Below are positions 6,431 to 21,525 of a DNA stretch of 37,050 nucleotides, piece by piece. Under the pieces are notes generated by a model, which worked only from the letters and a program-made list of their open reading frames with translations, did not search any database and was not told the origin of the DNA. Source of the stretch: Campylobacterales bacterium (GTDB lineage: Bacteria; Campylobacterota; Campylobacteria; Campylobacterales; JAABSR01); contig JAABSR010000003.1 of NCBI GenBank assembly GCA_011390245.1, positions 1 to 37,050 on the forward strand. The letters are read 5' to 3'. The position numbers and the translations under genes are program-made. Within the stretch, counting starts at the first letter, position 1; every line of letters starts with the position of its first letter.

Positions 6431-6486
6431 ACTTCTTCAAAAATCCTCTAGATAAAATATGCTACAATCCTCACTCTAATTTCCAA

Positions 6487-6563
6487 GTCCTCGTAGCTCA
6501 GCTGGATAGAGCACACGATTCCTAATCGTGAGGCCGTGGGTTCGAATCCCGCCGAGGACACCA
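6487..6563 (+). tRNA. tRNA-Arg (anticodon CCU)
   Basis: Acceptor stem GTCCTCG/CGAGGAC, D-arm GCTCAGCTGGATAGAGC, anticodon arm CACGA-TTCCTAA-TCGTG, T-loop GGTTCGAATCC, encoded CCA. Confidence 0.96.
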
Positions 6564-6615
6564 TCTACTCAAAGCTCACAAAACATTTAAAAGATTTATA
6601 ACCATTCATTGAGTG

Positions 6616-6662
6616 TGACAAAAAATATTTTGTCTAGCTTCTTGACAAAATATTTTTTGTCA
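6616..6662. repeat. Perfect 19-bp inverted repeat with 9-nt spacer
   Basis: TGACAAAAAATATTTTGTC (6616-6634), spacer TAGCTTCTT, GACAAAATATTTTTTGTCA (6644-6662). Confidence 0.9.
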
Positions 6663-6722
6663 TAATGCAAGATGACTTCCCTAGTGAGATTAAAAAAATG
6701 GGAAGCGAATTGCAAGAGAGTG

Positions 6723-6911
6723 TTTAGAATCTCAAAGACTGATTTCAAAATAAGATCAATCTATCATAGGATATAAGCTAGAATAAAAGTTCATATACTA
6801 CTATCATGTGTATCCTATGCACTCCATAAAGAGTTTGAGAGAAAGATTAAAGCTCTAAGAGTTAAAATAAAGAGTTCTCGTAATCAATCCCTAGTAGAAT
6901 GCAGTCACTAA
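6723..6911 (+). pseudogene. Degenerate C-terminal fragment of a DDE transposase (IS4/IS1634-like)
   Basis: Frame starting at 6723 reads FRISKTDFKIRSIYHRI*ARIKVHILLSCVSYALHKEFERKIKALRVKIKSS, which resembles the conserved transposase C-terminus 'xFRISKTDLxxRPIYHRxxxRIxAHxxL'. It has an internal stop and no intact N-terminal part. Confidence 0.7.
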
Positions 6912-17231: not shown

Positions 17232-18167
17232 CTATCTTCTTATTTTATCTAGATGCTCCTTGTAGGTTTTGCTAAATGTATGAGATCCATCTTTGTCTCT
17301 TACAAAATAGAGATAATCAACATCTGCTGGCGAAAGTGCTGCCCTTAGGGCTTCTATAGATGTCGAGCCTACAGGATGGGGTGGGATTCCTTTGTATTTG
17401 TAAGTGTTGTATCTTGAGGTATCACTTTTTATCATTTTTGGTGTAACTTTTACATGAGAGAACTCTCCATAGTTCAAAGATCCATCCATCTGAAGAGGCA
17501 TACCTCTTCTTAATCTGTTTCGAATAACTGCTGAGATTAGAGGCATCTCTTCAATATTTGCAGCCTCTTTTTGGATTATTGAAGCAATTGTTACATATTT
17601 AAACCACTGATTTTGGTCATACTCTCCAAGTATCTTAATAGACATATTTTTGTGCTTCTGTAAAGATCTATTTACTAAATAATACATAATATGATTTTCT
17701 TTGATTCCAATAGGGATAGAGTAGGTATCAGGTAAAATAACTCCATCTTTGTATGGAGCATATTTATTGTAGTAGTACTCAAGTTTGGAGGCATCTAGTG
17801 AGGATTTTTCACTTAGCTCTTTAAAGAGGAAATAGTTGGTCTCACCAGGGATTAATACTACATCAAACATTGCAGCTTTTGCATTTGCAATCCTATGCAA
17901 AAAATCAAATCTACTTAGGTGTTCGCTTCCTACATCTATCCACCCTTTTTGAGGTTTTCCAATACTCCTAAGAAGAAGTGCATCTACGCTTGAGAGTTGA
18001 AAGTTGTTTTTGATAAGGTGTGATATAATTTTGTTTATTCCGCCTTCTGGTATATACACTACTTTGCTTGAAGTGATGTGTAAAGACGCGTAGTAAGAGA
18101 GGCTAATAATGCATATAAAGATAATTTCCACAATTAGAAATATTATATTGAGTTTTTTTACTGTCAT
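17232..18167 (-). CDS. mltG: Endolytic transglycosylase MltG (YceG-like)
   Basis: IPEGGINKIISHL, ASIIQKEAANIEEMPLISAVIRNRLRRGMPLQMDGSLNY, GIPPHPVGSTSIEALRAALSPADVDYLYFVRDKDGSHTFSKTYKEH. Start at 18167 (MTVKKLN) or 18182. Confidence 0.92.
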   Translation of the reverse strand: MTVKKLNIIFLIVEIIFICIISLSYYASLHITSSKVVYIPEGGINKIISHLIKNNFQLSSVDALLLRSIGKPQKGWIDVGSEHLSRFDFLHRIANAKAAMFDVVLIPGETNYFLFKELSEKSSLDASKLEYYYNKYAPYKDGVILPDTYSIPIGIKENHIMYYLVNRSLQKHKNMSIKILGEYDQNQWFKYVTIASIIQKEAANIEEMPLISAVIRNRLRRGMPLQMDGSLNYGEFSHVKVTPKMIKSDTSRYNTYKYKGIPPHPVGSTSIEALRAALSPADVDYLYFVRDKDGSHTFSKTYKEHLDKIRR

Positions 18168-20733
18168 TGCTATATGCTCCATAGTCTTTGTGTTTGCCCT
18201 ATTTAGAGGAATAGAGATAGATTCTATTCAGATTGGTAAACTAGAAATTCAAAAATTATATCTTAGCTTTGATAAGAGACTAATCTTGAAAGCACAAAAA
18301 GTTGCTCTCTCAGCCATAGATGATATGGGTGTTGAGGAAAAATCTTTTGAGCTAGATGATCTATATGAGCTAAGAGAAATTATTGAGAATCTCCTAAAAT
18401 ATCTTGATTATTTCAAAGAGATATATGTAGAAAATCTTCTTGTAGATGGAAGATCTTATGCGATTCTCTATGTCGAAAATATCTTTTATGTAGATATTCC
18501 AGAGCTAAATATCGCCACAACATTTGAGATCAATAAAAATAGAATCACTATGGATATAAAAAGCCTAAACTTCAAAGATTATGGGCTTTCACTTAGTGGA
18601 AATATAGACTATAACATAATCTCAAAAGAGGCAAAAATAGATGGTTTTTTCTTTTTCAAATCTGATGCAAGGATATTTTTTAACGCAAACTACTTTGACA
18701 ATAGCGGAAGGTTAAGTATCGAGGGCTACTCAAATGAGTTTGGGAGTATAAGATTCTTAGAGAGAGATTTTGAATTAAAAAATCCACCGCTTGAAAAGTG
18801 GCTATTTCAAAGAGTGGAGAGTAGCTCTTTAAAGATAGATAGTTTTTCGCTAGATTTGAATATCAAGGAGCCAAAGTATGAGGATTTGTACAGTTTAAAA
18901 GCAAGAGGATATGTAAACAATCCAGATGTCCTATTTGATAGTAAGCTCTCCAAAGTAAAAGCTAAAAGAGTTGATCTAAATTTTGAAGATAATGTACTAT
19001 ATTTTGATATAACAGAGCCTATATATAGAGATAAAAAGCTTGATGGCTCAAAACTAGAGATCATAGATGTGCTGGGTAAGTATCCACACCTAAATCTAGA
19101 TTTAAAAATAGATAATAGACTTGATAGAGATATACAGGAGATTTTGAAGAGATTTAATATCAATCTACCACTGATTCAACATAGTGGAAGCACAAAATCA
19201 GCTCTAAATCTTTTAGTCGATTTAAATAGCTACGATACGCTTGCAAAAGGAAAATTTGAGAGCAAAAATAGTGACTTTACTTTGGCAAATCTAGACTTTA
19301 AGATAGAAAAAAGTGAGATATTTTTAGAAAATAATGGCACAAATCACTTTGTGGAAATAAAAAATAGCAAAGCTTCACTCGATGATTTTCTAAGAGTGAA
19401 GCTTGATGGAAGGGTGGAGATTGTTGAAGAGATATTTTCTGGAAATGCTTTTATTTATGATTTTAATATCTCTAGAGGGGAGAACTCAGTAGTAGATATC
19501 AACAACATAAAGAGTGATTTTTTGATTGATTTTTCAAAAGATTTTGTCACTTTAGAGATGAAGAGGTTTGATATTTTTGCTACTTTTGATGATGAGAATA
19601 GTTTTGAGCTAAAGAGTCTTTCAAAAATCTATGATCACTCTGAAATACTAAAAGAGCACAAAATAGAATCTGGTAGAGCCAAAATTACAACGCAAGAGTT
19701 TGAAACTTTTAAGATAGATGCAACTATTGGTGAGCTCTCTTATCCAATAATCACCAAGGATAAAAAGAAGCTAAAAAATCTAAAAGTAGATATAGAGATA
19801 GAGCAAAACCTAACATATATAAAAGCAAAAAATCAAGAGATTGTAGTCTATATTGATGATGAGAGTAGTGTTATTTTTATTAACAATCACGATATTAACA
19901 TTTCAGATCAGTTTCTAGAGAGCATAGAGGGCAAAGAGAAAGAGAGTGGCAAACTCTACCTTAGTGCAATTGATACAAATATATACTTTAAAGATAGATT
20001 TATAGCATCTGATTTTATTGATATTTTAATAGATGGCGAGAATCTATATGGAGATATATGGCATAAAAATGGAAAAATGCATATAGATAAAAATGAGAAA
20101 AGAGTAGAGATAAACGCAAACAACTTTGGAGATGAATTTGTAAATAGATTTTTTGATAAAAAAATGGTGCGAGGTGGTGTTTTTAGAGCAAAAGCTAAGA
20201 TGAGTGGAGAACTAACTAAAGGTGTTATAAAGATTGAAAATAGCCAAATTTATAATCTAAACACACTAAATAACTTTTTTGCACTTATAGATACGATACC
20301 ATCATTGGTTGTTTTTAGAGATCCTGGATTCTCTCAAGAGGGGTATGAGATTATTGATGGATTTATAGAGTTTGGATATATAAATGATATTTTTGTGATA
20401 GAGAAGCTATATTTCAATGGCAAATCCGTTGATATAGAGGGTTTTGGGATGATTGATTTAAAAAATGATAGCTTGGATTTGGATTTTCAAATCCATACTG
20501 TTAAAAACTTAAGTGCAATAATAAATACTATTCCTTTTGTTGGCTATATACTTTTTGGTGATGATGGAAAAGTTAGTAGTGGTGTAAAAGTTACTGGAAA
20601 AATTGATGATCCAAAAGTTCAGAGCAAACTAATAGGTGAAACCTTGCAAGCTCCCATAAATTTTCTAGAGAGAATCATAAAAACTCCTTTTAAGCTTTTT
20701 GGATTTGATGGCAATAGCTCTAAAGATAGATAA
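18109..20733 (+). CDS. Large AsmA/YhdP-like protein (DUF3971-type) with N-terminal TM anchor
   Basis: N-terminal TM helix; long beta-rich repetitive body; C-terminal NNFFALIDTIPSLVVFRDPGFSQEGYEIIDGFIEF...INTIPFVGYILFGDDGKVSSGVKVTGKIDDPKV typical of AsmA-like C-terminal regions. Confidence 0.75.
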   Translation: MHIKIISTIRNIILSFFTVIAICSIVFVFALFRGIEIDSIQIGKLEIQKLYLSFDKRLILKAQKVALSAIDDMGVEEKSFELDDLYELREIIENLLKYLDYFKEIYVENLLVDGRSYAILYVENIFYVDIPELNIATTFEINKNRITMDIKSLNFKDYGLSLSGNIDYNIISKEAKIDGFFFFKSDARIFFNANYFDNSGRLSIEGYSNEFGSIRFLERDFELKNPPLEKWLFQRVESSSLKIDSFSLDLNIKEPKYEDLYSLKARGYVNNPDVLFDSKLSKVKAKRVDLNFEDNVLYFDITEPIYRDKKLDGSKLEIIDVLGKYPHLNLDLKIDNRLDRDIQEILKRFNINLPLIQHSGSTKSALNLLVDLNSYDTLAKGKFESKNSDFTLANLDFKIEKSEIFLENNGTNHFVEIKNSKASLDDFLRVKLDGRVEIVEEIFSGNAFIYDFNISRGENSVVDINNIKSDFLIDFSKDFVTLEMKRFDIFATFDDENSFELKSLSKIYDHSEILKEHKIESGRAKITTQEFETFKIDATIGELSYPIITKDKKKLKNLKVDIEIEQNLTYIKAKNQEIVVYIDDESSVIFINNHDINISDQFLESIEGKEKESGKLYLSAIDTNIYFKDRFIASDFIDILIDGENLYGDIWHKNGKMHIDKNEKRVEINANNFGDEFVNRFFDKKMVRGGVFRAKAKMSGELTKGVIKIENSQIYNLNTLNNFFALIDTIPSLVVFRDPGFSQEGYEIIDGFIEFGYINDIFVIEKLYFNGKSVDIEGFGMIDLKNDSLDLDFQIHTVKNLSAIINTIPFVGYILFGDDGKVSSGVKVTGKIDDPKVQSKLIGETLQAPINFLERIIKTPFKLFGFDGNSSKDR

Positions 20734-20789
20734 AGGGCGGTTTACTGCCCGTGGGCTCTCTGCCGAAGAGCCTTTTTGGACTTGTGCAA
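20732..20789 (+). repeat. Direct repeat copy 1 (58 nt) with two hairpins, the second followed by T5
   Basis: AAAGGGCGGTTTACTGCCCGTGGGCTCTCTGCCGAAGAGCCTTTTTGGACTTGTGCAA. Hairpins GGGCGG-TTTA-CTGCCC (20735-20750) and GGCTCT-CTGCCGA-AGAGCC (20754-20772) then TTTTT. Confidence 0.92.
20754..20777 (+). terminator. Rho-independent terminator-like hairpin in repeat copy 1
   Basis: GGCTCT/AGAGCC 6-bp stem, 7-nt loop, then TTTTT. Confidence 0.65.
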
Positions 20790-20806
20790 TGATTGTGGTG
20801 ATAATA

Positions 20807-20864
20807 AAAGGGCGGTTTACTGCCCGTGGGCTCTCTGCCGAAGAGCCTTTTTGGACTTGTGCAA
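20807..20864 (+). repeat. Direct repeat copy 2 (58 nt), identical to copy 1, period 75 nt
   Basis: Exact identity with 20732-20789; ends 1-2 nt before the nth ribosome-binding site. Confidence 0.92.
20829..20852 (+). terminator. Rho-independent terminator-like hairpin in repeat copy 2
   Basis: Same structure as copy 1, shifted by 75 nt. Confidence 0.65.
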
Positions 20865-20880
20865 AAAGGAGATTAAATAG

Positions 20881-21525
20881 ATGAAACAATCAACTAAGAG
20901 TGAGATAGCAGATATAAAAGCTCTTTTTTTGGAGCACTATCCAGATAGCAAGACTGAGCTAAACTATCAAAATCCTTATGAACTTTTGGTCTCTGTCATG
21001 CTCTCTGCTCAATGCACTGATAAAAGAGTAAATATCATAACTCCTGCTCTTTTTGCAAAATATCCTGATGTAAACTCATTAAGTGTTGCAGAACTAGATG
21101 ATTTAAAGAGCATTATCAACTCTTGCTCATTTTTCAACAACAAAGCAAAAAACCTGATAAAAATGGCACAAGATGTTGTTTTGAAATTTGATGGTAAAAT
21201 ACCACTTTCAAGAGATGAGCTTATGACTCTAGCTGGCGTAGGTCAAAAGAGTGCAAATGTAGTGCTCATAGAGTATGCAAATGCAAATCTTATGGCTGTT
21301 GACACACATGTTTTTAGGGTTTCTCATAGACTTGGATTGAGCGATAAAAAGAGTGCTTTAGAGACAGAAATTGAACTATCAAAGAAACTAAAAGATAATC
21401 TTGATAAACTACATCAGGGAATGGTACTTTTTGGAAGGTATATTTGTAAATCTATCAATCCAAATTGCTATAATTGCTTTCTGATGGAGTACTGTAAATC
21501 AAAAAAGGGCTACAAGCCCTCATAA
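20881..21525 (+). CDS. nth: Endonuclease III
   Basis: VMLSAQCTDKRVN, LAGVGQKSANVVLIEYANANLMAVDTHVFRVSHRLGL, CKSINPNCYNCFLMEYCKS 4Fe-4S ligands; RBS AAGGAG upstream. Confidence 0.95.
   Translation: MKQSTKSEIADIKALFLEHYPDSKTELNYQNPYELLVSVMLSAQCTDKRVNIITPALFAKYPDVNSLSVAELDDLKSIINSCSFFNNKAKNLIKMAQDVVLKFDGKIPLSRDELMTLAGVGQKSANVVLIEYANANLMAVDTHVFRVSHRLGLSDKKSALETEIELSKKLKDNLDKLHQGMVLFGRYICKSINPNCYNCFLMEYCKSKKGYKPS

Follow-up and report, generated by a model that had tools for sequence, protein, structure and literature searches.

A dispersed, structured and apparently mobile Campylobacterales repeat very probably supplies the tandem hairpin pair in the nth leader

Introduction

What are the two identical, hairpin-forming segments that lie in tandem directly in front of nth in a Campylobacterales genome? 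Most probably they are shortened copies of a repeat that is dispersed through this order, structured and apparently mobile, and that sits in the nth leader and may tune it. Folded, mobile intergenic repeats are a known kind of element; the novelty lies in this particular family, in a fold that is both pseudoknotted and strand-specific, and in the lack of an identified enzyme.

The tandem pair in the nth leader

The window is the whole 37,050-nucleotide stretch of DNA analysed here, and all features of the locus are given on its + strand. A gap of 147 nt separates a YhdP/AsmA-like ORF (18109–20733) from nth (20881–21525), which encodes an HhH-GPD, endonuclease III-like protein, and both copies of the element occupy this gap. 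As the first-pass annotation had reported, direct reading finds positions 20732–20789 and 20807–20864 to be identical over exactly 58 nt, with differing bases on either side, a period of 75 nt and an unrelated linker of 17 nt (20790–20806). At its 5′ end, copy 1 shares bases with the stop codon of the YhdP/AsmA-like ORF, and copy 2 reaches into the nth ribosome-binding site. The core 19-mer of the repeat is found at these two places only within the window, where the chance expectation is 0 even with three mismatches.

Copy 1 (20732–20789) was delimited by direct reading, a covariance-model match and alignment with full copies, and lacks the 3′ arm of its last hairpin, H4′. Copy 2 (20807–20869) comprises the shared 58 nt and the remainder of that arm. 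The first hairpin, H1, has the sequence GGGCGG-TTTA-CTGCCC and lies at 20735–20750 in copy 1 and 20810–20825 in copy 2; the second, H2, spans 20754–20772 and 20829–20847. The terminator-like register described earlier for H2 does exist (GGCTCT at 20754–20759 with AGAGCC at 20767–20772 in copy 1), but it competes with the register used across the repeat family, in which CTCT pairs with AGAG around the loop GCCGA (20758–20761 with 20767–20770 in copy 1; 20833–20836 with 20842–20845 in copy 2). The corresponding pseudoknot strands are 20754–20756 with 20762–20764 in copy 1, and 20829–20831 with 20837–20839 in copy 2. The stretch GGACTTGTGCAA, which had been taken for a conserved tail, is indeed shared, but belongs to a third hairpin, as its loop and part of its 3′ arm; only copy 2 has this hairpin in full. 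There, H4′ (CCTTTTTG-GACTTGTG-CAAAAAGG; 20846–20869) has arms at 20846–20853 and 20862–20869. In copy 1 the boundary of the duplication truncates its 3′ arm, so the terminator-like register of H2 is more stable there. Elsewhere in the window, the gap at 6431–6861 behind a tRNA gene (6487–6560) holds a palindromic stretch (GACAAAAAATATTTTGTC...GACAAAATATTTTTTGTC).

Terminator and small-RNA readings

By eye, H2 is a GC-rich stem followed by T5, and the stem GGCTCT/AGAGCC with its TTTTT has a predicted energy of −8.5 kcal/mol, as would suit an ordinary terminator of the upstream gene that was duplicated locally. A terminator scan of the region nevertheless reported no site, and a nearly unchanged H1, linker and H2 stand in front of other genes at sites C1 and C72 of the same genome, where the T tract is missing. 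The U tract of copy 2 pairs within H4′. A locally duplicated terminator is therefore very improbable.

The proposal that the copies encode two independently transcribed small RNAs of 45–60 nt is very improbable too. One promoter-like match does lie upstream of copy 2 (20777–20805), and it is the sole such match on the + strand near the copies; however, it agrees at only 9/12 positions, runs across the end of copy 1 and the linker, and has no counterpart on the + strand for copy 1, while 0.7 matches are expected by chance in the region. Moreover, the repeat family occurs at many unrelated sites, and in relatives its elements stand in every orientation to genes.

A repeat family dispersed across the order

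Another possibility raised at the outset, a dispersed REP-like repeat, is borne out by copies elsewhere. Sequence searches recovered further copies on other contigs of the window genome, whose assembly is 83% complete: a 94-nt query based on the copy that precedes miaB on contig C72 located 13 places, and a covariance model of the family, R1, likewise gave 13 matches. The full element is ~80 nt long, within a unit of ~80–145 nt, and is built of four hairpins (H1, the pseudoknotted H2, the miniature H3 and the long H4), with the sequence GGGCGGTTTACTGCCCG-TGGGCACTCTGCCGAAGAGAACC-TAGCGTTAGCGTAGC-CTTGTTGGGCTTTGCTCAAAAGG-CG. Over 36 nt, H1, linker and H2 of the window are 97% identical to full copies (E 4.2e-11).

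Alignment with full copies shows that both window copies lack the same 18 nt (AACCTAGCGTTAGCGTAG), which correspond to H3 and its surroundings. An identical loss is found in the copy on contig C88, whose H1 differs. The canonical H4 is absent from the window copies, and its altered version still forms a stem in copy 2, so that the short form has the order H1-H2-H4′. Each window copy scores only 25 bits under R1, because H3 is gone and H4 is altered; both are filed as a degenerate short form of the R1 family.

Full-copy DNA is matched in 81/299 sampled genomes of the order, and R1 finds matches in 109/299, representing 30/81 genera, with no more than 15 copies counted per genome in this survey. 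Six genomes that were scored more deeply with R1 hold 73, 50, 21, 31, 14 and 84 copies. Hosts identified through a degenerate H2-H3 pattern include Sulfurospirillum (with several sites on the S. cavolei chromosome), Sulfuricurvum and Sulfurimonas. All 25 matching genomes in a phylum-level sample of 200 belong to the Campylobacterales, the number sampled outside the order not being given. Genus- and family-level searches comprised the window genome alone. Exact patterns containing the H1 of the window match nothing in genome contigs or viral contigs, because H1 differs between lineages. The element is thus present in relatives and not confined to the window, as both the sequence search and the covariance model suggested earlier as checks now establish. 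In four genomes of family f6 (loci L024, L031, L032 and L035), an element occupies what seems to be one shared position, with an rpmE-like and an rsmI-like gene on its two sides; it may be an ancient insertion that has been kept, and would then be useful for dating.

The family does not correspond to a known Rfam entry. The window yields only a tRNA, and eight full-copy loci gave no match to the element up to E = 1, and none above a gathering score. A weak SECIS_3 match (29 bits, below the gathering score of 63) lies at L025:2434-2492, near an element copy in a genome of the Sulfurospirillum genus. No earlier description of the sequence, or of a like element, was found in a literature search that covered few subscription papers, so one may exist. 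A count of REPs in Sulfurimonas gotlandica is given in PMC12306157, but no family of this type is described in the passage concerned. A high-copy, folded, mobile repeat in an order of well-studied sulfur-cycle bacteria is thus apparently without a name, an Rfam entry or an identified transposase. The R1 model eases its annotation, and makes it easier to ask what moves the copies and whether those in leaders alter expression.

Conserved fold and strand preference

The fold was assessed in an alignment of 44 distinct copies, with the counted structure drawn up by hand from the same sequences. It comprises H1, the H2 stem (columns 26–29 with 35–38), the pseudoknot (columns 22–24 with 30–32), H3, whose two pairs close a GTTA loop, and H4. 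Overall, 93.1% of cells are paired, and 19/25 pairs show changes on both sides. Compensatory cells number 150; shuffling the columns gives 38.6, and sliding the partners by one to three columns gives 5–23.

The pseudoknot joins GGC in the linker to GCC in the H2 loop, and covaries from GGC:GCC to AGC:GCT in 8/44 sequences. A pseudoknot had been anticipated for the window copies, and stands in kind; its partners are these two strands rather than GGGCGG and the loop. Support for H3 consists of one covarying pair. When run unaided, RNAalifold predicts H2 and H4 but places the H3 columns in a different helix, which makes H3 the least certain part of the structure. H1 is variable in sequence, and its differing lengths make it align poorly.

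G-T pairs outnumber A-C mismatches by 64 to 12, or by 57 to 6 when H1 is left out, although 19 cells of this excess fall at one column pair and may be inherited. The two classes would be expected to be alike if both strands mattered equally, which indicates that the strand shown is the folding strand. At the level of sequence comparison, these counts show that one particular strand folds under selection, either as RNA or as single-stranded DNA.

Mobility and insertion sites

Evidence of movement comes from a region containing luxS, the symporter gene sstT and the next gene, compared in 24 genomes of one genus. The gap behind sstT measures 168 nt in genome G193 and 40 nt in G171, which is 94% identical nearby. 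The extra 128 nt in G193 are one element with a flanking hairpin, inserted at GGAG^CGGTA, where G171 has an empty but otherwise matching site. No target-site duplication is visible at this insertion, the single one read precisely. Genome G160 carries another element in the same gap, in the opposite orientation and at a different point. Between luxS and sstT, an element is present in G193, G171, G051 and G299 and absent from the other genomes read. Genome comparison of this kind shows that the element enters intergenic sites as a discrete unit, that is, that the family evidently moves.

The ends of the unit differ between lineages. Many copies in genome G163 are bounded by inverted repeats (ATTAAGTTAA/TTAACTTAAT), whereas the ends in G193 are separate hairpins. 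Two variants of ~150 nt in G163 (L184:6403-6556 and L180:9493-9641) have extra sequence between H2 and H4, and one of them has the inverted-repeat ends on both sides. The family resembles MITEs in being short and non-coding, in inserting as a unit and possibly, in G163, in its inverted ends. It differs from them in its lineage-dependent ends, in having no autonomous partner that could be found and perhaps in target-site duplication, which was not seen at the one site read precisely; ~180 kb of G163 revealed no autonomous transposon sharing the repeat ends.

Tandem copies occur at 10/57 sites in stretches of two genomes, G193 and G163. The pair at nth would fit this pattern: an element without H3, and thus missing 18 nt, would have come to lie at the nth ribosome-binding site, and a 58-nt part of it would have been duplicated locally in tandem, as elsewhere in the family.

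The mobilising enzyme and other repeat classes

Several classes of folded repeat offer comparisons. ERIC, Correia/NEMIS and Bacillus cereus bcr1 elements are, like the present family, mobile or formerly mobile intergenic repeats of ~100–150 nt with conserved folds; by description, ERIC and NEMIS are nearer to one long hairpin, and they have other sequences in other taxa. Cyanobacterial SDR elements are also small folded repeats with no recognised transposase of their own, but measure ~20–30 nt as against a unit of ~80–145 nt here. The SDR (small dispersed repeat) class is named in PMC3116915.

REP/REPIN elements moved by a RAYT (Y1) transposase share further properties with the family: they are short, folded intergenic repeats in high copy number and tandem clusters, regarded as non-autonomous and as being recognised in the form of single-stranded hairpins (PMC3116915). 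Across the order, Y1 domains are associated with the element (odds ratio 3.5, uncorrected for phylogeny). On the other hand, of the 51 genomes that carry 10 copies or more, 14 lack any Y1 match, among them the window genome and the single-contig genomes G158, G191 and G293. The single RAYT-like Y1 transposase gene of G193 (L152:9240-10230) is flanked by a different, unrelated inverted repeat (GGGGTCAGGGCTAAACTTTTAACTTTT), and the nearest element lies ~7 kb away. REPINs are inverted doublets of REPs tied to a flanking RAYT (PMC3116915), whereas the Campylobacterales repeat has four different hairpins and a pseudoknot, and no RAYT flanked by it was seen. The Y1-free high-copy hosts and the other repeats around the G193 gene led to RAYT mobilisation being largely rejected, and it is improbable that the family is a RAYT-moved REP or REPIN.

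No mobilising enzyme was found for the repeat, the Y1/RAYT transposase being the candidate examined. The family would be non-autonomous, its elements being moved by an enzyme that is supplied in trans and recognises their single-stranded fold.

Orientation and possible effects on nth

Elements in the complete G193 genome are intergenic, and often 20–35 nt from the 3′ end of a gene. Their placements there show no significant orientation preference (13 sense, 7 antisense, 11 convergent and 9 divergent), although individual placements may contain errors, since a simple ORF rule was used to identify the genes. An initial count from best-match loci (51 sense and 9 antisense between co-directional genes) was dropped for sampling bias and repeated orthologous sites, and superseded by a count on stretches of G193 and G163. 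In the window genome, all 10/10 sites with a gene close downstream are sense, although the numbers are small and the downstream genes are unrelated; that at C163 is, as recognised by eye, presumably rpmG. This all-sense placement is unlike that in Sulfurospirillum, and leaves room for recruitment of the repeat as leaders in the lineage of the window genome.

The Shine–Dalgarno sequence of nth, AAGGAG, lies at 20866–20871, and its first part falls inside the 3′ arm of H4′ in copy 2, so that the predicted stem CCUUUUUG/CAAAAAGG takes in part of it. At C88, the equivalent predicted stem, CUCCUUU/AAAGGAG, includes the whole Shine–Dalgarno sequence. H4 is placed against or over the Shine–Dalgarno region at several sites, namely nth, miaB, C1, C88 and C112. 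For copy 2, the combination of H1, family-register H2 and H4′ has a predicted energy of −22.4 kcal/mol, compared with −18.9 kcal/mol for H1 with the terminator register of H2 (pseudoknot left out).

The repeat might have been recruited as a cis-regulatory RNA, in which the terminator register of H2 and the pairing of H4′ with the Shine–Dalgarno sequence are alternative states controlling nth and other genes. The two copy 2 folds do compete for the same bases, and the uniform sense placement in the window genome, with H4 at several Shine–Dalgarno regions, would suit such a role. This reading is unlikely, given the lack of a significant orientation preference in G193, the unrelated downstream genes with their small numbers, and the separate Shine–Dalgarno sequence present at several sites. 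Somewhat more doubtful is the broader idea that, in one lineage, a strand-specific, pseudoknotted mobile element with an unrecognised mechanism became a set of sense leaders whose Shine–Dalgarno pairing gates the translation of nth, miaB and other genes that are unrelated to one another.

As far as sequence goes, the hairpins may either matter to nth or simply be passengers that it tolerates. Any effect on nth may act through H4′ over the Shine–Dalgarno sequence rather than through a plain attenuator. More tentatively, copy 2 would fold as H1-H2-H4′ in the nth mRNA, and the modelled pairing of H4′ with part of the Shine–Dalgarno sequence may lower nth translation; copy 1 would add a stable hairpin upstream. 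For the gap as a whole, folding further predicts that the U tract of copy 1 pairs at long range with the A tract of copy 2.
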